Source: a virus. Taken from it: a stretch of 24,361 bases of DNA. This document shows positions 9,460 through 24,361 of this stretch, one piece after another; position 1 is the stretch's first letter, and every line of letters starts with the position of its first letter. Under the pieces are notes generated by a model. That model did not search any database and had not been told where the DNA came from. It saw only the letters and a list, made by a program, of their open reading frames with translations. The position numbers and the translations under genes were made by a program. Where the stretch lies: the IMG/VR virus record IMGVR_UViG_3300028388_004872, positions 1-24,361 of that record; one strand, given 5' to 3'.

Positions 9460-9933
9460 ATGAATTGGATATATGATGGCAATCAAGTTTCATCTGTTGA
9501 TGATATGCCTGAAGGAGTTTATGGATTTATTTATGAAGTTACTCATTTACCCAGTGGAAGAAAATATCTTGGTAGAAAACAAGTAACCTTTACACGAAAG
9601 AAAAAAATTGGTAAAAGAGAATCTAAACAAATAAAAGAACAAAAAAAATTAAATGGAGAACGTGCGGTATCTCCAAAATATAAATATGTAACCAAAGAGT
9701 CTGATTGGAAAGACTATTATGGATCATCAGATGAAGTTAAAGAACTACTTAAAGAAGGTTCAACAGACGATTTTAAAAGAGAAATTTTAGAGTATGCTTT
9801 TCATAAAAAACAATTATCTTACAAAGAAACATCATTACTTTTTACAAGAAAAGTGTTAGAAACAGATGAATATATAAATTCTAATATACAAGGTAAGTGG
9901 TTTAGAAAAGATACCAAAGACATTATTCAATAA
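9460..9933 (+). CDS. GIY-YIG family endonuclease
   Basis: This 157-residue protein carries the GIY-YIG nuclease layout: FIY at 23-25, ten residues, then YLG at 36-38. After a lysine-rich stretch (45-80) come DWKDYYGSS (82-90), the candidate catalytic arginine R107 in F-K-R-E-I-L, the metal-binding glutamate candidate E123 in YKETSLL, and Asn at 140/142. GIY-YIG enzymes cut DNA; phage members include homing endonucleases and T4 endonuclease II. The order and spacing of the conserved residues are seen directly, while the substrate is not known. It is a free-standing gene next to the primase, where mobile nucleases and genome-processing nucleases both occur in T4-like phages. The Lys-rich insertion between the YIG motif and the DWxxYYG motif could bind DNA. 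Confidence 0.75.
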   Translation: MNWIYDGNQVSSVDDMPEGVYGFIYEVTHLPSGRKYLGRKQVTFTRKKKIGKRESKQIKEQKKLNGERAVSPKYKYVTKESDWKDYYGSSDEVKELLKEGSTDDFKREILEYAFHKKQLSYKETSLLFTRKVLETDEYINSNIQGKWFRKDTKDIIQ

Positions 9934-10185: not shown

Positions 10186-11133
10186 ATGCTAACAAATAGA
10201 AATAAGAATACAGTAATAAAAATACTTGATAGAAGTCTTGGAGTTGGAAATTCTCTTAAAGGAGATGAGCGTTCTCACTACTGTCCTTTTTGTCACCATC
10301 ATAAAAAGAAACTTCAAGTAAACCTAGAAAATCAAAAATGGCATTGTTGGGTATGTGATTCCAAAGGAAGAACTATATCTTTTTTACTTTCAAAGTTAAA
10401 TGTTGATTATTCTGAAATACAAAAAATAAATTCTATCTATGGTGATGATGGTAGTTATTCAAAAACAAAATCAGAAGATGAATCAAAAATACAACTTCGA
10501 TTACCAAAAGAATTTATTTCTCTCAAAGATAAACCTATAGAAATAAATCCATATTATAATCAAGCAATTTATTATCTTAAACAAAGAGATATTGGAATAG
10601 ATTTAATCCAAAAATATAATATTGGATACTGCGAAGGTGGGTTATATGATGGTAGAATAATTATTCCTTCATATGATGAAGAATTAAATTTAAATTATTT
10701 TGTAGCTCGTACATTTTATGATGATGATACGGTTATGAAATATAAAAACCCACCAGTAAGTAGAAACGTAATAGTTTTTGAAAATCAAATAAATTGGAAT
10801 GAACCAATAATTTTAGTGGAAGGTGTTTTTGATTCCTTTTCAGTAAGAAGAAATGTAATACCTTTACTTGGTAAATTTATACCAAAAATATTGTTAGATA
10901 AAATAAAAGAAAAAAAAGTAAAAGAGATTATAATTTTACTCGATAATGATGCAGTAAATGAAAGCTCAAAGTATGCTGATTATTTCTTAAAAAATAATAT
11001 AGAAGTAAAAAATATAATACCATCATCAAAAGATGCTTCTGATTTAGGATTTGATTATGTTAATAATTTAATTAAATCTACAAAAAATACAAAATGGGAA
11101 GATAATATTTTCTCTAAACTTAATACCATATGA
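10186..11133 (+). CDS. DNA primase (CHC2 zinc finger + Toprim)
   Basis: This 315-residue protein makes RNA primers for lagging-strand synthesis, acting with a replicative helicase that is not in this window. The N-terminal zinc-binding domain has four cysteines in CPFC (33-36) and CWVC (54-57), the CHC2-type arrangement with His31/His53 nearby. The Toprim part has the glutamate motif VEGVFD (211-216) and the metal-binding LLDND (251-255), with D253 and D255 as expected. At 315 residues it is about the size of T4 gp61 and much shorter than bacterial DnaG, lacking a helicase-interaction domain of DnaG length. Its TGA overlaps the ATG of the next gene (ATGA), implying translational coupling with the recombination protein. 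The only ATG before the zinc finger is the one chosen. Confidence 0.85.
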   Translation: MLTNRNKNTVIKILDRSLGVGNSLKGDERSHYCPFCHHHKKKLQVNLENQKWHCWVCDSKGRTISFLLSKLNVDYSEIQKINSIYGDDGSYSKTKSEDESKIQLRLPKEFISLKDKPIEINPYYNQAIYYLKQRDIGIDLIQKYNIGYCEGGLYDGRIIIPSYDEELNLNYFVARTFYDDDTVMKYKNPPVSRNVIVFENQINWNEPIILVEGVFDSFSVRRNVIPLLGKFIPKILLDKIKEKKVKEIIILLDNDAVNESSKYADYFLKNNIEVKNIIPSSKDASDLGFDYVNNLIKSTKNTKWEDNIFSKLNTI

Positions 11134-14123
11134 TAAAAAAAATATATCATGTCGCGGATTTGCACATTCGCAACCTTAAAAGACACAAAGAATATAAAGA
11201 AGTATTCGATAAATTTTTACAAGAAGTAAAAGATAATGATTTAGGTGATGAAGCAGTTATTTATTTAGCAGGTGATATAGCTCATGCTAAAACTGAAATG
11301 TCACCTGAATTGATTAAAATGATTAGTTGGTTTTTAAGTGAATGCTCAAAATTACACCATACTTTTCTTATTACAGGAAACCACGATTGTAATTTAAATA
11401 ATAATTACAGATTAGATGCACTTTCTCCTATTGTAGAAAATTTAAACAATAACCGAATACATTATTTAAAAGACACTCAAGTTTACGATTTTAAAAACTT
11501 AACTTTTGTAGTTTATTCAATTTTAGATGATAAGAAAAATTGGCCTTCTGCTGATGAGGTTAAAGGGGAAAATAAAATATGTTTATTTCACGGACCTGTT
11601 AATAAAGCTCAAACTGATATTGGATATACTGTATCTTCAAATTCATTTACTGCTGATATGTTTGATGGGTTTGATATGGCGTTACTTGGTGATATTCATA
11701 AAAGACAAAATTTAGGTGAAGGATATGAATGGGCAGTTTACGCTGGTAGTTTTGTGCAGCAAAATCATGGAGAGCTTTTAGAAAATCATGGTTATTTATT
11801 ATGGGATGTAGAAAGTAGAACATATACCGAGCATAATATCCATAATGATTATGGGTTTTTAACTATTGATATAAAAGACGGCCAAGTTCCAGAATGGGTT
11901 TATGATGAAGTAAATACCAAAAATATTGTTGGTAATGTTCGAGATGAAACTTTTCAAAATAAACTTATCAAAGAATATTTAGAAACTCAATTTTTATTAG
12001 AAGATGATGATTTAGAAGAAATTGGTAAAATTAATAAAGAAATAAATTCTAGAATAGATGACTCTAAGGGAGCACAAAATATAGTTTGGTATCCAAAGTC
12101 ATTTGAATTTTCTAATATGTTTTCTTATGGTGAAAGTAATAAACTAAGGTTTAACAAAGCAAATGGAATTATAGGTATATTTGCACCCAATGCTTCCGGT
12201 AAATCATCTTTATTTGATGCACTTTCTTTTTGTATATATGATAAAACATCACGTACTTATCTTGCTAAAAATATATTAAATAATAGAAAGTCAAACTTTT
12301 ATTGTAAATTCAATTTTGAAATAAATGGAATTGATTTTTTTGTTGAAAGAAAAGGTAAACTCATTAACAAAGGAAAAAATGTAAAAGTAGATGTAAACTT
12401 TTGGAAAGAAGAAAATGGAATAACAACATCTTTAAATGGCGAACAGCGTAGAGATACAAATCATATTATTCAACAGTATTTGGGAACATATGAAGATTTT
12501 GTTTTAACTTCACTTTCTTTACAAGGTAATAATGCACTTTTTATAGATAAATCTCAAAGTGAACGAAAAGATATACTTGCTCAATTTATAGGTGTAGATA
12601 TATTTGATAAACTTTACAATGAAGCATCGGAAGAAAATAGAGAAAATAGAACTTTAATTAAAAAGTTTAAAAGAGATGACTTTACTTCCAAACTTGCTGA
12701 TATAGAATTGCAATATAATAAAAAACAAAATGAATATAAATTATTAAATACAGAATTAAAATCTGCAAAATCACTAACAGAAGATATAAATAAAGAAATA
12801 CTTTTATTAAATAATCAGTTAGTAAATATTTCCACAAGTGTAACAGATGTAGATATTGCAAAATCTGAATTAGAAAAATATAAAACTGAATTATCTTCAT
12901 ATAAAGATTTAATCAATAAAACTCAAAATAGTATTGAAGAATTAGAAAAAAATCAAATAGAGTTAGAAGATATATTAGATGAATATGATTATGATGAGTT
13001 AAAAGAAAAAGTTGAAAGGTCTAATAAATTACAAAATGATTTACAAAATATTCAAATTGAAATTGAAAAAAGAACATATAAACTATCGTCTTTTAATGAA
13101 AGAAAATCGCATTTAGATACACACAAGTATAATGAAAATTGTGAGATTTGTATGGAAAACTCACATACTATTTTAGAACAAAAAGAAAAGATAGTTAATG
13201 ATATTAAAGAAATAAATCAATCAATAACTGAGTTAAATAATAAAGAATCTAAATTAAAACATAGTATTGATGAACTTATTGAATATAAAAACCAATATTC
13301 ATTATACATTGAAACTAAAGAAAAAGAAGTTAAAATAGATAGAGATTTAAATAATTTATTAACTAAAATTTCTAATTATGAAAATAAAATTTTAGATTTT
13401 ACTAACAAAATTGAAAATTTAGATAAAGAAATATCCCAATATTACAAAAATGAAAATATTATTAAAAATAATAATAAAATAAAAAGTAGTATTAAATTAA
13501 AAGAAGGCGAATTAAACTCAAATAAAAAAGATGTAACCAATAAAGAAAATAAGTTATTATCTATAAATGGAGAAGTTTCTTCACTTAAAAATCAAATAGA
13601 AAATATAAGTGATAGAATTGATGAAGTAAAACAACTTGAGGAACAGAATAGATTATATGAATATTATTTAAATGCATTAAATAGAGATGGTGTTTCTTAT
13701 GATTTAATTTCTAAATCACTTCCTATGATAGAAGGTGAGGTAAATAATATACTGACTCAAATTGTAGAGTTTGGAATGCAATTGGAAATGGATGGTAAAA
13801 ACATTAATGCTTATATTGTCTATGATGACCAACGATGGTCTTTAGAAATGTGTAGTGGTATGGAACGATTCATATCAGGTCTTGCAATTCGAATTGCTTT
13901 AATTAATGTATGTAATTTACCAAGACCAAATTTTTTGGTTATTGATGAAGGGTTTGGTACATTAGATAGTGAAAACTTAACATCATTGTATATGTTATTT
14001 TCTTATCTAAAAACTCAATTCGATTTTGTTATGATTATATCTCATATTGATTCAATGAGAGATGTAGTGGATAACCTAATTGAAATAAAAAAAGAAGAAG
14101 GATTTTCTTCAGTTAAACTTTAG
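11130..14123 (+). CDS. Fused Mre11/gp47-type nuclease and Rad50/gp46-type ATPase
   Basis: This 997-residue protein joins both halves of the SbcCD/gp46-47 recombination complex, which trims DNA ends for recombination-dependent replication. Nuclease half: DLH (10-12), GDIAH (48-52), GNHD (83-86), H154 in FHGP, and GDIHK (187-191), all metallophosphoesterase motifs. ATPase half, from about 320: Walker A APNASGKS (352-359), a long coiled coil with zinc-hook CEIC (671-674) at its tip, signature CSGMERF (908-914), Walker B LVIDEG (936-941) with a GTLD D-loop, and SH (971-972) of the H-loop. T4 and E. coli encode these as two proteins; here the frame is continuous. The first Walker A position is Ala instead of the usual Gly. 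It is coupled to the primase by ATGA, and its stop overlaps a convergent gene. Confidence 0.9.
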   Translation: MIKKIYHVADLHIRNLKRHKEYKEVFDKFLQEVKDNDLGDEAVIYLAGDIAHAKTEMSPELIKMISWFLSECSKLHHTFLITGNHDCNLNNNYRLDALSPIVENLNNNRIHYLKDTQVYDFKNLTFVVYSILDDKKNWPSADEVKGENKICLFHGPVNKAQTDIGYTVSSNSFTADMFDGFDMALLGDIHKRQNLGEGYEWAVYAGSFVQQNHGELLENHGYLLWDVESRTYTEHNIHNDYGFLTIDIKDGQVPEWVYDEVNTKNIVGNVRDETFQNKLIKEYLETQFLLEDDDLEEIGKINKEINSRIDDSKGAQNIVWYPKSFEFSNMFSYGESNKLRFNKANGIIGIFAPNASGKSSLFDALSFCIYDKTSRTYLAKNILNNRKSNFYCKFNFEINGIDFFVERKGKLINKGKNVKVDVNFWKEENGITTSLNGEQRRDTNHIIQQYLGTYEDFVLTSLSLQGNNALFIDKSQSERKDILAQFIGVDIFDKLYNEASEENRENRTLIKKFKRDDFTSKLADIELQYNKKQNEYKLLNTELKSAKSLTEDINKEILLLNNQLVNISTSVTDVDIAKSELEKYKTELSSYKDLINKTQNSIEELEKNQIELEDILDEYDYDELKEKVERSNKLQNDLQNIQIEIEKRTYKLSSFNERKSHLDTHKYNENCEICMENSHTILEQKEKIVNDIKEINQSITELNNKESKLKHSIDELIEYKNQYSLYIETKEKEVKIDRDLNNLLTKISNYENKILDFTNKIENLDKEISQYYKNENIIKNNNKIKSSIKLKEGELNSNKKDVTNKENKLLSINGEVSSLKNQIENISDRIDEVKQLEEQNRLYEYYLNALNRDGVSYDLISKSLPMIEGEVNNILTQIVEFGMQLEMDGKNINAYIVYDDQRWSLEMCSGMERFISGLAIRIALINVCNLPRPNFLVIDEGFGTLDSENLTSLYMLFSYLKTQFDFVMIISHIDSMRDVVDNLIEIKKEEGFSSVKL

Positions 14124-14771: not shown

Positions 14772-17700
14772 ATGCCAAGAATAAAAAAATTCTCACCAGT
14801 TCAAAATTTATCCCAAATTCAAACATTCGTTTTAGATGACGGTATAAATTCAAAATATTTTAAGATTACGGAATTTAAAGAAACCTTTACCGGTGGTAAA
14901 AACGGATTTCTTATAGAAGGAACTAAATATCTTAAAGAGGGTGTTGAAATAAAAATTGATATTACTGATGTAAATGGAAATCCAGTTTATTTTGAACCCG
15001 GTGATGGTATACCAGAATATTATGAAGGAACTTCTAAATTAGTTTCTGTTTATGTTTACCAAGATACTCCAATTGGAGAAGCTAATATAACGATACTTGG
15101 TGAATTAAAAAGATATGAAGATGAAACTGGATTAGTAAGAGATATACCTGATGAGTGGAAAGGTATATATAATGTAAAGTGGCAAAGAACGTTTGCTATA
15201 AACAAAAATATCCAAAATGAAGACCGAGTTAGATTTGTCCGAAGACCGCAAGTAAATATTGATGAAATAGTAAAACCAGTTTTTAGTGTAAGTCCAAGAA
15301 CAAAAACTCATTCTGGTTCATTAGATGGTGCAGCTTTATCTCCATCAAATGGTACAAATATAGATGATTATACTTTACCAACTACTTATAGATTATTTAG
15401 AAACACCGGCCCTTCTTTTTCGGGTTCAATGGTTGGAAATCAAATTCAATTTGATAACTTACAATATACTCCAACTATTTTAGATGTAGTAAATGACGAA
15501 GAGTTGGTAGTAGATACTCCCTATACTGAAAACTCAATTGTTCGCCCACTTACAAATGGATTATATACTAGTTCATTTATTTATTTAGAAGATGGTGATG
15601 AGTTAGCTACCGCACTTACTGCATCGTTTGCAAAGATTAAGATTACCGATATGAAAACCTTTGTTGGAGATGCAGCAAGGGTAAAGGTTTTTAGGAGGTC
15701 ACAATCCCAATTAACAGACTTTGAATTCGTACAAGAAATTCAATTAGAGTCAAACGAGTTATTAAGAGATTTAGATTCTAAAAATGAAGTTGAAACAAAC
15801 TTTGGATTACTCACCGAACAAATTTTTCAAAATTATTGGATTACATCATCTAATAATTTAACAACGGAAATAAATCAAAATATTTTATATAATTCGGTAA
15901 AGTTAGATAGTGTTGGTCTTAATTCTTTTTTTACAAGTCAGTCATTTGATGTAAATCAAGATGTAGAATATACACTTACTTTTAATGTAAAAAAATTAGG
16001 TTCAATAAATTCTGATGAATATGTTAAAGCTTTTTTAGGTAGTACTCCAGGACCGATAGTAGAGGATACTAGTGGAGCAATTCCATGTGCACAAGCATCT
16101 TCTTATACTGGTGGAGAGTCTTACCCAACTGAGCAAACTGTAAATTTAGGTGAAAATACGGGACTTACAGAATTACAATTTAATGCTATAAATGTACCAG
16201 ATAGATTTATTGTTGAGTGGGATGGTAATGTCGTAATTGATAGTGGATATGTAGGTGGTTCTGAATATGATTTTGGTGGTGGTTCTCGTGCTACATTTAC
16301 ATCTGGTTTAACTGGTGAATTAGACCCAATAACCGGTAATACTTATCCTGATTTTGTTACATATACAGATGACGGATACCCAAGAGTAACCACTCAAGCT
16401 AATCCGTTATTACCCGATGGATCCGGATCAGGAAATTTTAATAAAACATCATCATCTCCTCAATTAGCAGATGTTAAGGTATATGCCCCATTGGGTGGAA
16501 CTGCTTGGGATTTAACTTTATTCTGCCCACAAAATCCACCTATATTAGATGTAGAAAGAATATCTAATCCAGATACAATACAAGAAATTACAACTTTACA
16601 ATCATCTAATAATGTATTACAAAAATTTGAAGTTGAAGAAAATTTTATAGCAAATAGTATTGATGATGTTAGATTATATTTTGAAATATCGGGTTCTGAT
16701 TGGTATATTTCCAATATTTCATTAAAAGCTTCGCAAGAAACTTCTTTTTCACCAGATGAAATTACATTTATACAACAAGTTCCAAAAACGTTAGAAACGG
16801 AAACGTTTGATTATAGATTTGAATTTTATGATATTAACAATAATTTTATTCCAGTAAATGTAGAGCAAACAAAAACTTTTACTGGTGGAAATTTAAATTT
16901 ATTTCAAAAAAGTATTGAGCTAATTCCTGATAATTTATATTTCAGTTTTGACTCTGCATCTAATCCTGCTAATGCAATTCCACCAACGGTAATTAATATA
17001 GATGTTGAAACAACGTTAGTAACCGGTTCAATTAACTATACATCTCAATCATTTGATTTAGATGGTAATTTAATACCTTCCCAATCATATAATGGAGCAA
17101 CGGATGTTTATCCTGGTTTATTAGATACAACAGATAATAGAGCTCCGTTTTTAACGGTTGCAAACTTTACAGGTTCAAAAGAAGAAAATATAGTTCAATT
17201 TGTACGAATTACTGGTGAAGTAGAAGGGGTAAGTGATACTATAATTATTACAAGAGTTGAAGATGGAAAGGGTGGAGTCAATTTTGAGATTAGACCATTT
17301 CGTGGTACTTCTATAAAAAATAAAGAAGATAAAAGTTTAGAAGTACAAGCCATAAGAATTGATGGTATAAATGAAATTCAGTTAAGAGATGGATTGGAAA
17401 GAAACTTTTCAAACGCCAAATTACGACTTTTATCATCTTCTATTGATGGAGGTAATACGGTTGAAACTTATGTTTCTCTTTCACAGGCAATTACTGATCC
17501 TAATTTTATAACCGGTGTTTCTGCAGGTACAACAGGTAGTGGTGAAATAGATTATAATGCCGAGTTTAATAGAGATGCGATTGATAATGAATTAGTATTA
17601 TATCTTATGGATGGCCCAACTACGGAGTCAATCCTTACTTCTCTTATTCTTAATGATTTAAAAGATGGTTTAAATAATGGTAGTATAACCACAACAAATA

Positions 17701-20063
17701 ATACATTTACCATAAAACCAAGAGAAGAAAGAGTTTTTACTCCTAGTCAATCAACCGTAACTGGTTCATTTTTTGAAAGAGGAAAAACCGAAAGTCCTTT
17801 ATCAGGTACGTTAGTAATTACTCCTTCAATGTCTCTACAACCAAAAACAGAACTTCCACAATTTTGGATGTTTTATGAAACGGGTGCATTTGAAGATAGA
17901 ATAACTGTAAATGTAACTGATGGAGTTGGTAATAGTATAGAAAGTGGAATTCCTAATGTTACTCCAAATGTAAATTATACACCAGAACAGACAAAGTTAT
18001 TAAATGTAGAATTTATTTATACCGAAGATGTAACAAATGTTCAAATATCAAATAGTGAAACTTTTACAATAGTTCCCGAAGGATTGCCAGGTCAAGACTC
18101 AATTGAAATTAACATAGAACCAAATCCTGTAAATGTTGGTGCTAATTCAAAAGGTGAAGTTAGTAATTATGAACTTTTAGATACAACAATTACCGTTACA
18201 CAAGGTGACTTACCACTTATAAATACAGCAAGTGGTGATCCTGGTACATTTACAACATCATCTATTGTAGTAAATGGACTTGAATTTGAAGGCGTACAAG
18301 GAAATTCATTAACTTCTATGAGTTTATCAGGATTTAATTCTATGTCTGCTCTTTCGGCAAGTATTGAATATAATTTTGATATTTTCCCGTATTTTACTGC
18401 TTCTATTATTTCTAGAAGTAAAGTTCAAAAGTTTAATAAATCGGTTGATGGTGCAGGTGCAATTGAAGTATTGATTGAACCAATAAATGCTTCTATTAAT
18501 GCTGATGAAAGTGGATTTGTAAATGCCGATAGATATGGAATTTTAGATACAACACTAAAAGTAAAACAGGCAGAAGAGTTTTTGGTATTTGATATTCAAA
18601 ACTTGGGTACACCTGGTACATATACTGCATCCATAGTACCAAATGGAATTTTAATTGGGGATATATCATCATCTTCACAAGACTCAAACACAATTGGTGA
18701 TGATACGTTACATATTCAAAATTTTAATAGTTTTGTTATAAATGAAAATTCAGCTTCTGTTAATTATGATTTAGTAGTATATCCTTATTCTTTAAAAGAT
18801 GGAGTTGCAGGTGTACCAACTCCAATTACAAGAAAACAAGTATTTTCAAAAGTAAATGATGGTTCGGCTGCAAGACGAGTAAAACTCACATCAAATACTA
18901 CTACCATAGTTTACAATGCAGACGGTGATATTGAAACCCCTGCTGGTTCGGTTATATTAACGGCTGCATCTTCTAATACAACTGGTTCGGTATATTACAG
19001 ATTTAAAGATGAAAATGGTAATACATTACAAGGGCCTCTTACATCAAACACATATACGGTAAATGATCCACCTGCGAGTGGAGAACAAGCTACATTTACT
19101 GTTGAACTTTTAGATGGTGGTACAACTGCACAAGTTTTTGATACAGACTCGGTAACAATAGCTGCTATTCAATCAGGTCAATCATCTTATAATGTAATTC
19201 TTTCTAATGCAAGTTCAACGGTAGAAGTTGAAGTAGATGGAACGGTAAATTTAGACCAAACTAAAACTGAAATAAGAGCATATAAAGCAGGTAATGAACT
19301 TGATATAGTTGACCAGTTCGGTACAACTAACTCCGGCCCACCTGACTTTTTACCGGTAGTAATAAATGAAGCATCGGCTTCTATTGTAGATTATTCATCT
19401 CATATTACCTTATTAGATAATAAACTAGGCGAGGATTCCTCAAATCTTTATGTAACTTCATCAGGTTTAGCTTCTTGGACTAATCCACAGGTTAATAGAA
19501 CTGCGTTTATTACCTATAAAGTGGATTTTGAAGATGGAAGAAGTGAACAACAAATAACACAAACACTAACCGCAGTATTTGAAGGTGCAACCGGTCCTGG
19601 TTTGGTTATGAGGGGAGAGTGGACTGGTTCTATACCTTATATATTTGATTTAGACCAAAAAAGAAGAGATGCAGTATTCAAAGATATAAATGGTAGTGTT
19701 CATTATTGGGCAACAACCGAGTTAACACCAACTGCTTCTGTTTATACCGATGGAGATGAGGTTTATACACTGGAACCTGTTTATACCGAGGGTGTAACTG
19801 AAGAAGGTGATATTGACTATGATACAACTTGGCAATATTTGGGAGAACAGGATTTCTTTGTAGCAGCTAAGTTAGCAATATTTGAAGAGTCATTTGTTAA
19901 AAATACTATAAATATTGGTACACCACCACCTGGTGAAGAAAATGCAAAAATAGCCATAGTTGGTGGTACTGATGAACCTTATATTTCAGTAGGACAAACT
20001 GGTATACAAGGATTTAATCAACCCCTTTGGGTGACATTCGTGGAAATTGGACTGCTGGTGTAA
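14772..20063 (+). CDS. Giant tail-fibre/adhesin protein, N-terminal part
   Basis: This 1763-residue open frame begins with a conserved-looking beta domain (1-170: FLIEGTKYL, IDITDVNGNP, DEWKGIYNVKWQRTF) that probably anchors the fibre. Residues 430-586 form an insert bounded by Cys439 and Cys585, with PDRFIVEWDG and VYAPLGGTAWDLTLFCP; the flanks read like one sugar-binding jelly roll. Further on, Ig-like modules repeat, including two copies 120 residues apart starting at 1111 and 1231 (IEINIEPNP and IEVLIEPIN). MRGEWTGSIPY near 1615 starts a W/Y-rich module. The last dozen residues, after about 1752, are out of register with the family pattern: the protein seems to continue in another frame from 20027. 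Host-receptor binding at the cell surface is inferred. Confidence 0.7.
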   Translation: MPRIKKFSPVQNLSQIQTFVLDDGINSKYFKITEFKETFTGGKNGFLIEGTKYLKEGVEIKIDITDVNGNPVYFEPGDGIPEYYEGTSKLVSVYVYQDTPIGEANITILGELKRYEDETGLVRDIPDEWKGIYNVKWQRTFAINKNIQNEDRVRFVRRPQVNIDEIVKPVFSVSPRTKTHSGSLDGAALSPSNGTNIDDYTLPTTYRLFRNTGPSFSGSMVGNQIQFDNLQYTPTILDVVNDEELVVDTPYTENSIVRPLTNGLYTSSFIYLEDGDELATALTASFAKIKITDMKTFVGDAARVKVFRRSQSQLTDFEFVQEIQLESNELLRDLDSKNEVETNFGLLTEQIFQNYWITSSNNLTTEINQNILYNSVKLDSVGLNSFFTSQSFDVNQDVEYTLTFNVKKLGSINSDEYVKAFLGSTPGPIVEDTSGAIPCAQASSYTGGESYPTEQTVNLGENTGLTELQFNAINVPDRFIVEWDGNVVIDSGYVGGSEYDFGGGSRATFTSGLTGELDPITGNTYPDFVTYTDDGYPRVTTQANPLLPDGSGSGNFNKTSSSPQLADVKVYAPLGGTAWDLTLFCPQNPPILDVERISNPDTIQEITTLQSSNNVLQKFEVEENFIANSIDDVRLYFEISGSDWYISNISLKASQETSFSPDEITFIQQVPKTLETETFDYRFEFYDINNNFIPVNVEQTKTFTGGNLNLFQKSIELIPDNLYFSFDSASNPANAIPPTVINIDVETTLVTGSINYTSQSFDLDGNLIPSQSYNGATDVYPGLLDTTDNRAPFLTVANFTGSKEENIVQFVRITGEVEGVSDTIIITRVEDGKGGVNFEIRPFRGTSIKNKEDKSLEVQAIRIDGINEIQLRDGLERNFSNAKLRLLSSSIDGGNTVETYVSLSQAITDPNFITGVSAGTTGSGEIDYNAEFNRDAIDNELVLYLMDGPTTESILTSLILNDLKDGLNNGSITTTNNTFTIKPREERVFTPSQSTVTGSFFERGKTESPLSGTLVITPSMSLQPKTELPQFWMFYETGAFEDRITVNVTDGVGNSIESGIPNVTPNVNYTPEQTKLLNVEFIYTEDVTNVQISNSETFTIVPEGLPGQDSIEINIEPNPVNVGANSKGEVSNYELLDTTITVTQGDLPLINTASGDPGTFTTSSIVVNGLEFEGVQGNSLTSMSLSGFNSMSALSASIEYNFDIFPYFTASIISRSKVQKFNKSVDGAGAIEVLIEPINASINADESGFVNADRYGILDTTLKVKQAEEFLVFDIQNLGTPGTYTASIVPNGILIGDISSSSQDSNTIGDDTLHIQNFNSFVINENSASVNYDLVVYPYSLKDGVAGVPTPITRKQVFSKVNDGSAARRVKLTSNTTTIVYNADGDIETPAGSVILTAASSNTTGSVYYRFKDENGNTLQGPLTSNTYTVNDPPASGEQATFTVELLDGGTTAQVFDTDSVTIAAIQSGQSSYNVILSNASSTVEVEVDGTVNLDQTKTEIRAYKAGNELDIVDQFGTTNSGPPDFLPVVINEASASIVDYSSHITLLDNKLGEDSSNLYVTSSGLASWTNPQVNRTAFITYKVDFEDGRSEQQITQTLTAVFEGATGPGLVMRGEWTGSIPYIFDLDQKRRDAVFKDINGSVHYWATTELTPTASVYTDGDEVYTLEPVYTEGVTEEGDIDYDTTWQYLGEQDFFVAAKLAIFEESFVKNTINIGTPPPGEENAKIAIVGGTDEPYISVGQTGIQGFNQPLWVTFVEIGLLV
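20021..20035 (+). other. Fibre frame break 1
   Basis: The protein reads GQTGIQGFNQP in frame 3 and then GDIRGNWTAG in frame 2, changing register within about 10 nt. No classic slippery heptamer is in frame here. Since no second copy of this region exists in the window, the size of any missing piece cannot be measured. Confidence 0.6.
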
Positions 20064-22513
20064 CTTATCTACCAAATGATATAGTTGCTTATGAAGGTAA
20101 TACATACACTTTGATATCTACTACTCCAATTACTGCAACAAATGATAGTGATATTGATACAGGGTTTCCTGATGAAGCAACTAATAGTTGGACTATTGCG
20201 ATTGCATCGGGTACAAGTGGTACTGCTGGGGGTACTGGTAAATCATTAAGTATAAGTGCAAATTCTCAAGTTTATATTTTTGATAATTTTGGTGATACTA
20301 CACCCGATAATGATATAATAAACTTTTCGGTAAAACAACAAAATTTAACAGGTGAAGTTTTAGGTTCTGATATTACAATTACTAAATCAGATGGAAATAC
20401 CATTACTACTCCAACTTTAACAGGTACTATAACAGATGGTACAGGTCAAAAGTCATTTGATTTATCTTTTTCAGGCGATATTGGTGATAAATCATTTTTA
20501 CCAATTACTGCTTCTGTAACCAAAGATGGAATAACAGATTTACTAAATATACAAAAAATAGAAGGTGGTGCAGATGCAGATCCTCAATATTTTATTACTC
20601 CATTAAATGGTACTCAACTTAAAAATAGCACAGGTACGTTAGAACTAAAAATACAATCTTCCGATCCTGTAAATGGATTACAAGATATTACAACCGGTGA
20701 TATTAAAATATATAGTGGTTCAAATCTTATAACAACGTATGCTAATGTTAGTGGTACTGATTACAACCCAATTATTTCAGCTGATGCCATATTTGGAACG
20801 ATGGACTTAATACTTTCGGGTAGTGATGGTATACTTGACTCAATTACACTATTAGACGTAACAGATGGTTTAGGTGGAGGTTCGTTTTTAGCATCAAACT
20901 TAAAATTAACACGAACTACATCAACTAATCAGTTTCCAATAACTAATGAATATACGCCATCATTTTTATCTGCAACTGCTTCATTTTTTGATGTTCAAAG
21001 TACAGAATATCAACAGGCATTTTCAATCTCTGCATCATTTGAAAGTGAAACAGATTTTATGTCTTATGAAACAAGTTCAACAATAACTTCTCCAAATATT
21101 GAAATTGTTGATGTAAATAACGGTGATGGAATTTCTTATTCGGGTCCTGGTGCGTCAAATAAACTTGCAACAAAAGATATAAATATAGTAGTTAAATTTA
21201 CCGATCCTGTTTCAGGTCAGTCTAGTACAATAAATGAAACTTTTTATGTTATATCAGATGGATTAGATGGTTTAGATGCAATAAATGTAGTAAATTCAAA
21301 TCCATCAGAAACTTTACCATCAAGTAATGCAGGTGTTGTTTCTGATTATAATAATAGTGGTACTATAATAGAAGTTTTTGAAGGCACTGCTTCCTTAAAT
21401 TATGATGGAGTTGGTACATCTCCTGGCACTTGGAAAATAAATACATCACAAATACCTGACTCAACTATTACAATAGGGTCAATTACATCACCACAAAATG
21501 CGGCTATTATTGATGACCATGATGCAATGGATAATGGAACTAATAGAGTTTCTATAAAATACTCCATAACAGGTTCAAGACGAAATGGTTCAGAATTTTT
21601 TACCGAAGCATCACAAGTAATAACAAAAGCAAAAGCCGGTAGTGATGTAAACTTAGTAAATTTAATTGCAGATAATATTGCTATTAGTTATGACCAAGAT
21701 GGATTAAATCCATCTCCAACAAAGATAGACTTAATAGCATCATCATCAAACTTTAACAATGCATTCTTCAAGTTTACTGGTGGAGGTGGTGCATTTACTG
21801 ATGAAAGTACATTTACCGATGGATTTACTCAAAATACAGACACGGCTTCGTTTATTGTTCCATCATCTTATTCTCAAACTCCATATACATTTAGAGTGGG
21901 AGTTGCGGATGGAGACCAAAGTGAATTAGCTAATGATATACTTACTATATTTTCATTAAAACCTGGCGCAGATTCAGATCCTCAATATTTTATTACTCCA
22001 TTAAATGGTACTCAACTTAAAAATAGTAGTGGTACTTTAGAATTACAAGTTCAATCGTCAGATCCAATTAATGGTTTACAAAATGTAACCGATCCAAGTT
22101 TTGCAATTTACACAGGTTCTGTTTTAGTTACAAATATATCAGGTGTTACTGGAACTGATTTAAATCCTACCATAGATGCATCAGCCATTTTTGGTACTAT
22201 GAATTTATTTTTATCAGGTAGTGATGGAGTTTTAGATTCACTTACTTTACTTGATGTAACAGATGGTTTAGGTGGTGGAACATTTAAATCTCCAAATTTA
22301 AAAACTACAAGAGATATAAGTGATAATTCGTTTAATCCATTATTTTTATCAGCAACCGCATCATTTTTTACTCCATCAGGTGTTGAATATACCTCAAGTG
22401 TAAAAATTACTCCATCATTTGATACAGTTGATAAAATGGCAGTTTCATCAGCTGATGGTGATACTACCAATATAACAATTACCGCAGGTGATGGGATGGT
22501 GCAGATGGTATAG
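20027..22513 (+). CDS. Tail-fibre continuation, fragment 2 (frame-shifted)
   Basis: This 828-codon open frame is not likely to be a separate gene. Its apparent TTG start lies inside the previous frame, with no ribosome site. It begins with GNWTAGVTYLPNDIVAYEGNTY, a W-x-x-Y-x-x-D-x-V-x-Y-x-G-x-x-Y pattern like small chitin/cellulose-binding modules (CBM5/12-like), then enters tandem modules. One module starts at DPQYFITPLNGTQLKN (from 20579) and runs through SATASFF, a VISDGLDGLDAI linker, FEGTASLNYDGVGT and a SYDQDGLNPSP module. The next copy starts at 21977. The frame ends in GDGMVQMV, where the corresponding place in the following repeat continues as GDGDGGTITLGGSS. The protein probably carries on in another frame at 22495. 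Confidence 0.6.
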   Translation: MGDIRGNWTAGVTYLPNDIVAYEGNTYTLISTTPITATNDSDIDTGFPDEATNSWTIAIASGTSGTAGGTGKSLSISANSQVYIFDNFGDTTPDNDIINFSVKQQNLTGEVLGSDITITKSDGNTITTPTLTGTITDGTGQKSFDLSFSGDIGDKSFLPITASVTKDGITDLLNIQKIEGGADADPQYFITPLNGTQLKNSTGTLELKIQSSDPVNGLQDITTGDIKIYSGSNLITTYANVSGTDYNPIISADAIFGTMDLILSGSDGILDSITLLDVTDGLGGGSFLASNLKLTRTTSTNQFPITNEYTPSFLSATASFFDVQSTEYQQAFSISASFESETDFMSYETSSTITSPNIEIVDVNNGDGISYSGPGASNKLATKDINIVVKFTDPVSGQSSTINETFYVISDGLDGLDAINVVNSNPSETLPSSNAGVVSDYNNSGTIIEVFEGTASLNYDGVGTSPGTWKINTSQIPDSTITIGSITSPQNAAIIDDHDAMDNGTNRVSIKYSITGSRRNGSEFFTEASQVITKAKAGSDVNLVNLIADNIAISYDQDGLNPSPTKIDLIASSSNFNNAFFKFTGGGGAFTDESTFTDGFTQNTDTASFIVPSSYSQTPYTFRVGVADGDQSELANDILTIFSLKPGADSDPQYFITPLNGTQLKNSSGTLELQVQSSDPINGLQNVTDPSFAIYTGSVLVTNISGVTGTDLNPTIDASAIFGTMNLFLSGSDGVLDSLTLLDVTDGLGGGTFKSPNLKTTRDISDNSFNPLFLSATASFFTPSGVEYTSSVKITPSFDTVDKMAVSSADGDTTNITITAGDGMVQMV
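22487..22503 (+). other. Fibre frame break 2: 127-nt deletion junction
   Basis: Left of 22494 the sequence matches unit 3 up to 23753; from 22495 on it matches unit 3 from 23881. Unit 3 has 127 extra nt between those points. The join is GATGG followed by GATGG. The loss is not a multiple of three and moves the frame. Confidence 0.8.
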
Positions 22514-24012
22514 ATGCTTTGACTGTGGCACTTACCAATCCTGCACATAATATTCCAGCAGACTCATCTGGTACAGTTTCTTCATTTGATGGAAGTGGAA
22601 CTACTATTAAATTATTTGAAGGAACTTCATCACTTGATTATGATGGTGTAGGTACTGCAAATGGTAAATGGACTGTTTCTGCTACGGGTGATGGTATTAC
22701 TCCTGGCTCTATAACCGAAGATGGTAAATTTGCCATAGTTGGTAATCATAGTTCAATGACTGAAGATTCTGCATCAATTGAATATACTATAACAGGTAAA
22801 AGATTAAACGGTAGTGATATTACAGATACCACTGCTATTCAAAGTTTAGTAAAATCTAAAGCAGGTGTTGATGGTGTAGGTTCATTTGTTACAAGATTAA
22901 CGGCAGATAATTTTGTTATTACCTACGACCAAGATGGATTGAATCCTTCTCCATCATCTATTAAACTTATTGCAAGTTCGTCTAATTTTACCGATGGATT
23001 TTTTAAGTTTACAGGTGAAGGTGGATTTTCTGATGATGCTTCATTTTTAGATGGGGAAACTGCAAATACTGATGAAAGAACGTTTACCGTTCCATCAACA
23101 TATTCTCAAACTCCATATAAATTTAGAGTAGGAGTTGCAGATGGAAACCAAGTTGAGAGAGCAAGTGATAATCTTTCCATAGCATCGGTAAAACCTGGTT
23201 CTGATACAACACCACAATATTTTATTACATCTATTGCAGGTGGTACTCAAATTAAAAATTCTGGTGGTGGTATAGAACTTCAAGTTCAAAAATCTTCAGT
23301 AGATGGATTAGATGATATAACAAGTGGTACAGATGCAAGAATTTATATTGATACTACATTACTTACCGTTCAAACAGGTATAACCGATGGTGGGAATGGA
23401 GTTGAATATAACCCAATAATAAGTGCATCGGCAATCGATGGTACGCTTGTTTTATCACTTAGATCTGGTAGTACAGGTCAACATGGAGTATTAGACACAA
23501 TTACATTAGTTGATGTAACGGATGGACTTGGTGGTGGTACGTTTCTTTCTCCAAACTTAAAAACTACTAGAGATCCATCTGATAATTCGTTTAATCCATT
23601 ATTTTTATCAGCCACTGCATCTTTCTTTGATATAGATGGAAGTGAGTACACATCTTCAGTACAAATTACTCCATCATTTGATACAGTTGATAAAATGGCA
23701 GTTTCTAATGCGGTAGGTGATACTACCAATATAACAATTACCGCAGGTGATGGTGATGGTGGAACAATTACACTTGGTGGTTCATCTGTAGCAACCAAAG
23801 ATACTGTATTAACCGCAGTATTCACTAGTCCTGTAACTGGAAAAACAACAACAACTACTGAAACATTTTACATTATTTCAGATGGTGCAGATGGTATAGA
23901 TGCTATTACTGTTACTACAAATAATCCATCTCATACCGTACCTGCAGCAGCAGATGGTACAGTTTCATCATTTGGCCCGGAGATAGCTCATTTTCTATTG
24001 GTAACGTTATAG
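22495..24012 (+). CDS. Tail-fibre continuation, fragment 3 (frame-shifted)
   Basis: This open frame picks up at DGADGIDALTVALTNPAH directly after the break. The first available start codon is a TTG at 22519, which is inside the conserved linker, so it is a continuation and not a new gene. It contains the FEGTSSLDYDGVGT, YDQDGLNPSPS and PQYFITSIAGGTQIKN modules in the same order as fragment 2. It then gives the only intact version of the stretch lost at the second break (TITLGGSSVATKD to TETFYIISDGADG, about 1256-1300 nt into the fragment). It ends eleven codons after TVSSF, where the protein pattern is lost again. Same fibre, same inferred receptor-binding role. Confidence 0.6.
   Translation, partial: DGADGIDALTVALTNPAHNIPADSSGTVSSFDGSGTTIKLFEGTSSLDYDGVGTANGKWTVSATGDGITPGSITEDGKFAIVGNHSSMTEDSASIEYTITGKRLNGSDITDTTAIQSLVKSKAGVDGVGSFVTRLTADNFVITYDQDGLNPSPSSIKLIASSSNFTDGFFKFTGEGGFSDDASFLDGETANTDERTFTVPSTYSQTPYKFRVGVADGNQVERASDNLSIASVKPGSDTTPQYFITSIAGGTQIKNSGGGIELQVQKSSVDGLDDITSGTDARIYIDTTLLTVQTGITDGGNGVEYNPIISASAIDGTLVLSLRSGSTGQHGVLDTITLVDVTDGLGGGTFLSPNLKTTRDPSDNSFNPLFLSATASFFDIDGSEYTSSVQITPSFDTVDKMAVSNAVGDTTNITITAGDGDGGTITLGGSSVATKDTVLTAVFTSPVTGKTTTTTETFYIISDGADGIDAITVTTNNPSHTVPAAADGTVSSFGPEIAHFLLVTL
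23971..23982 (+). other. Fibre frame break 3
   Basis: After TVSSF the expected FEGTSSLDYDGVGT-type strand is absent, and the pattern resumes as GDSSFSIGN in another frame. Compared with the earlier copies about 20 codons, plus or minus one base, seem to be lost. Confidence 0.6.
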
Positions 24013-24361
24013 TAAATCCTACTGGTGATTTTACCATAGATGGAACACCAACCGAAGGAGCAGACTTTATTGAATATGGTGATGGTACTGCAATGAATAG
24101 TGCTACTGACGTAGTAACTATTACATATGGTATAACTGGGTCTAGAGCGAGTAGTGATGAATTTAGAATTGATACAACCCAAACCATAACTAAAGGAAAG
24201 GCAGGTTCTGATGGTAGTTCTGGTGCAGATGGTTCAAGTGGTTCGGACGGAGATACTGGTTCACCGGGAGCAGGTGTTGTTTATAGAGGTGAATGGGATC
24301 CAACAAAAGACATCGTTTCAACAAGTGAAAGAAAAGATGTAGTAGTTTATGACGATGGTGG
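23979..24361 (+). CDS. Tail-fibre continuation, fragment 4 (partial, runs off the window)
   Basis: From the third break the protein pattern resumes in another frame as GDSSFSIGNVIVNPTGDF and continues with YGITGSRASSDEF, the counterpart of YTITGKRLNGSDI in fragment 3. A collagen-like run of eight Gly-X-Y triplets follows (24204-24275, GSDGSSGADGSSGSDG and on), a common hinge or trimerising element in phage fibres. Then comes a new VYRGEWDPTKD module, a relative of MRGEWTGSIPY in the N-terminal part. There is no start codon with a ribosome site; the frame is open to the window edge. Confidence 0.6.

Follow-up and report, generated by a model that had tools for sequence, protein, structure and literature searches.

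A 127-nt absence in a repeated unit of a giant phage fibre-like gene: very probable assembly error in an environmental scaffold

According to a review, many repeats stay unresolved in metagenome assembly, and assemblers over-collapse them (PMC8021871). Tandem domain repeats within a phage protein are described in the BACON arrays of crAssphage (PMC6949934). Here we analyse a window of 24,361 nt (positions 1-24361 in a virus record 26,914 nt long, a scaffold from environmental DNA) that carries a giant phage fibre-like structural gene in pieces (Table 1). The last part of this gene within the window holds about three copies of a ~450-codon unit (20033-23976), and the second unit lacks 127 nt found in the third.

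The fibre gene, its neighbours and its relatives

The fibre gene lies downstream of a primase gene and an SbcD/SbcC-like gene. It matches the PHROG 5073 tail fibre family weakly (E 1.4e-4 over 68 residues) and a tail protein of Bacillus phage BM15 distantly, while CBM_5_12 scored under the cut-off in the window and just over it in an uncultured relative, L087. A megablast search of named phages with 9.6 kb gave no match, single-protein scans of viral contigs with fragments 2 and 3 gave no close relatives, and the repeat domain had no relative in bacterial and archaeal genomes.

Table 1 Features of the fibre-like gene in window coordinates
Feature	Position	Strand	Basis
Giant phage fibre-like structural gene, in pieces	14772..24361, continuing beyond the window to the record end	+	ORFs, 58 single-frame relatives, weak PHROG 5073 match
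Fragment 1	14772..20024	+	tblastn to L008, 58% identity; homology to relatives stops at ~20024
Break 1, frame change, ~60 residues missing relative to relatives	20024..20033	+	L008, L016 and L087 have the segment; size estimated by protein comparison
Fragment 2 (unit 1, then unit 2 up to the join)	20033..22494	+	
Left flank, 38 nt running up to the join and matching 23716-23753 of unit 3 exactly	22457..22494	+	
Break 2, join without 127 nt found in unit 3	22494..22495	+	Comparison with unit 3
Right flank, 24 nt running on from the join and matching 23881-23904 of unit 3 exactly	22495..22518	+	
Fragment 3 (unit 2 right of the join, then most of unit 3)	22495..23976	+	
Segment of unit 3 equivalent to the 127 nt absent from unit 2; holds the final two long strands of a predicted beta domain	23754..23880	+	
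Break 3, frame change in unit 3, ~23 residues missing relative to units 1 and 2 and L008	23976..23994	+	Position and size estimated by protein comparison

A scan with the SbcD/SbcC-like protein identified 80 loci, 58 of which carry the fibre N-terminus (a few being near-duplicates). Every forward-strand match to the window's fragments lies in one frame in all 58 of these loci, and the C-terminal part is reached in 34 of them. In L087 a single uninterrupted ORF of 3,325 codons holds all three segments absent from this record. Scans with the unit itself found L087, L127 and L128, with one unit each; the ~450-codon unit was not found in L008 and L016. Set against the approximately three copies here, these counts point to an expansion of unit copy number in the phage fibre, real biology that lies near the join. 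None of the fetched relative loci contains a run of more than one N, which indicates that this record was assembled differently.

A 997-residue protein (11130-14123) is a fusion of an SbcD-like with an SbcC-like part; ~60% identical versions of it occur in many uncultured phages, with a full-length 38% identical version in Microcystis phage Mel-JY01. A small ORF (9460-9933) matches PHROG 447, which bears the label NAD synthetase, and has a weaker match to a family of homing endonucleases; it is possibly a mobile endonuclease adjoining the tail genes. The fibre proteins of the relatives contain an intein/Hint-like domain near the C-terminus (L087, 12680-13150; L016, 22236-22697), which matches PF14890 Intein_splicing with an E value of 6.9e-7 in L087 (under the cut-off) and 4.2e-10 in L016 (over the cut-off); the record studied here stops before the corresponding part of the fibre. 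The first residue of this domain is S, and its terminal HN precedes A or I instead of C, S or T, a pattern with which self-cleavage rather than splicing is possible.

The join in unit 2 and the domain that it interrupts

At the join the offset between units 2 and 3 shifts from 1259 to 1386, so that exactly 127 nt are absent, a size defined modulo whole units, as the loss of 127 nt plus at least one unit would look identical. The skip breaks the reading frame of the fibre gene; since 127 is 1 mod 3, restoring it unites fragments 2 and 3 in one frame. The spacing of the units is 1232 or 1235 nt, depending on the anchor, and becomes 1359 or 1362 nt (453 or 454 codons) when 127 nt are added. The counterpart of the missing piece in unit 3 encodes DGGTITLGGSSVATKDTVLTAVFTSPVTGKTTTTTETFYIIS. 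A search of viral contigs for an exact 29-nt stretch of the left flank gave no match. These results bear out the first-pass annotation in its description of the absence relative to the next unit, in the coding content assigned to the missing piece and in the restored frame. Its 24-nt right flank is likewise correct, whereas the left flank, given as 35 nt, measures 38 nt, and the restored unit is indeed of whole codons, with the proposed 453 holding for one anchor and 454 for the other.

In a predicted model of the unit-3 domain (mean pLDDT 68, moderate) the missing piece corresponds to residues 71-113, which contain the final two long strands of the beta core. The 42-43 residues are present wherever the domain is complete, in five of five copies (units 1 and 3, L087, L127 and L128), with TKD and ETFY motifs invariant throughout. 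A unit that lacked these two strands would probably not fold like the others. A PDB fold search with the 145-residue model (mean pLDDT 68) returned nothing at E 0.001 or better, and the fold is therefore named only as all beta; a second domain model, for which five sequences were used, scored lower (mean pLDDT 60).

GATGG words on the two sides of the join had been read as expected for repeat-mediated loss or for assembly collapse, a weak argument. There are 43 such words in the final 4.4 kb of the window, and the join retains both of its own. The ends of the 127-nt cut share 0 nt of homology. The marks of a deletion between short direct repeats are thus lacking, and we rejected GATGG as the cause of the loss because it is too common and was not reduced to one copy. 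A cut of 126 nt, by comparison, is bounded by a perfect 7-nt direct repeat (GATGGTG) and leaves the frame unchanged, so that unit 2 could carry a natural in-frame deletion of 42 residues between GATGGTG words, with one further base lost through a sequencing or assembly error. That account needs a second event placed exactly at the join, and it deprives the predicted domain of its final two long strands and of residues that every complete copy has, invariant motifs included; we consider it very unlikely.

Origin of the join

The whole 26,914-nt record has only six exact repeats of 20 nt or more (52, 43, 38, 33, 24 and 20 nt), and those of 38 and 24 nt adjoin the join, with the 43-nt repeat 10 nt further left. 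Units 2 and 3 are ~67% identical away from the join and 93-100% identical in the two 30-nt bins at it. Given this background identity and the fact that two of the six repeats touch the join, the match goes far beyond chance. The join thus lies in DNA that is identical or nearly so between copies, and sequence comparison places the missing piece within the stretch of greatest likeness between the two units; protein conservation may account for part of the local identity. Collapse at a repeat would be expected to place the join in the stretch that is most alike, where a random deletion would fall by mere coincidence. The longest exact repeat (52 nt; 20577-20628 and 21975-22026, units 1 and 2) lies away from any break, from which it follows that exact repeats of that length did not by themselves always disrupt assembly.

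Two further breaks in the same gene bear on the question. Break 3 is followed, just beyond the window, by a 49-N scaffold gap (24362-24410), so that three frame-breaking losses and this gap fall within 4.4 kb of the fibre gene; no break was seen in the ten genes before 14772. Neither break 1 nor break 3 is flanked by a long stretch repeated exactly within the record, so that the three breaks need not share one cause.

The combination of three such losses and an N gap in one gene, the single frame in 58 of 58 relatives (intact as assembled elsewhere, L087 in whole) and the position of the join in the strongest identity between units favours collapse. Reasoning from the assembled sequence, we hold with high confidence that the join is an assembly error in the scaffold and not a deletion in the phage, which most likely carries a full unit 2; we infer that its fibre gene is intact. 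Of the two origins put forward by the first-pass annotation, comparative evidence thus supports assembly collapse; it gives no support to a deletion mediated by GATGG, since both words are retained and the cut lacks end homology. A block of ~189 nt (38 + 127 + 24) is probably identical in units 2 and 3. Short reads from such a block could not be assigned to one copy, and the assembler would have put its middle only into unit 3 and joined the unit-2 ends directly; should the missing piece be identical to unit 3, the shared block exceeds many short reads. We rejected the possibility that the assembly had jumped out of unit 2 into unit 3, as past 22518 the sequence returns to a unit-2-specific form (64% identity to unit 3).

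A true, recent 127-nt deletion, in the phage or as a minor allele of its population, would truncate the fibre after unit 2. The printed sequence reads that way, tandem units with locally identical stretches can swap or lose DNA, and both flanks are still well conserved, as after a recent event. Such a deletion nevertheless requires three independent frame-breaking losses, beside a scaffold gap, in a gene that is single-frame in all 58 relatives, and a cut that has no end homology and yet sits in the block of highest inter-unit identity, and we think it very unlikely. Very unlikely, too, is that the phage population has a shortened, frame-broken fibre allele, arisen through exchange between tandem units, that would change the length of the fibre or turn it off. 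Were the deletion true, it would suggest that a phage fibre switches length via its repeats. With an assembly error as the preferred explanation, annotation of this fibre gene as several separate proteins, or as a pseudogene, should be avoided, and its number of units and its length are to be taken as lower bounds.

Comparison with known systems

The closest parallel to the join is the collapsed or mis-joined repeat of short-read metagenome scaffolds (PMC8021871), with which it shares a loss within near-identical repeats and nearby breaks with an N gap; there is no difference in kind. The tandem units resemble the BACON arrays of crAssphage (PMC6949934) in that a protein domain unit is expanded in tandem within a phage protein, but the unit here is ~450 residues long, comprises several domains and has no Pfam BACON match. 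The nearest relatives of the gene are the large tail-fibre proteins of the uncultured relatives L087, L008 and L016, which occupy the same position after the SbcD/SbcC-like gene and are 57-59% identical across most of fragment 1 (L087 and L008). The fibres of these three are unbroken, and L087, like L127 and L128, has one unit where this record has about three.
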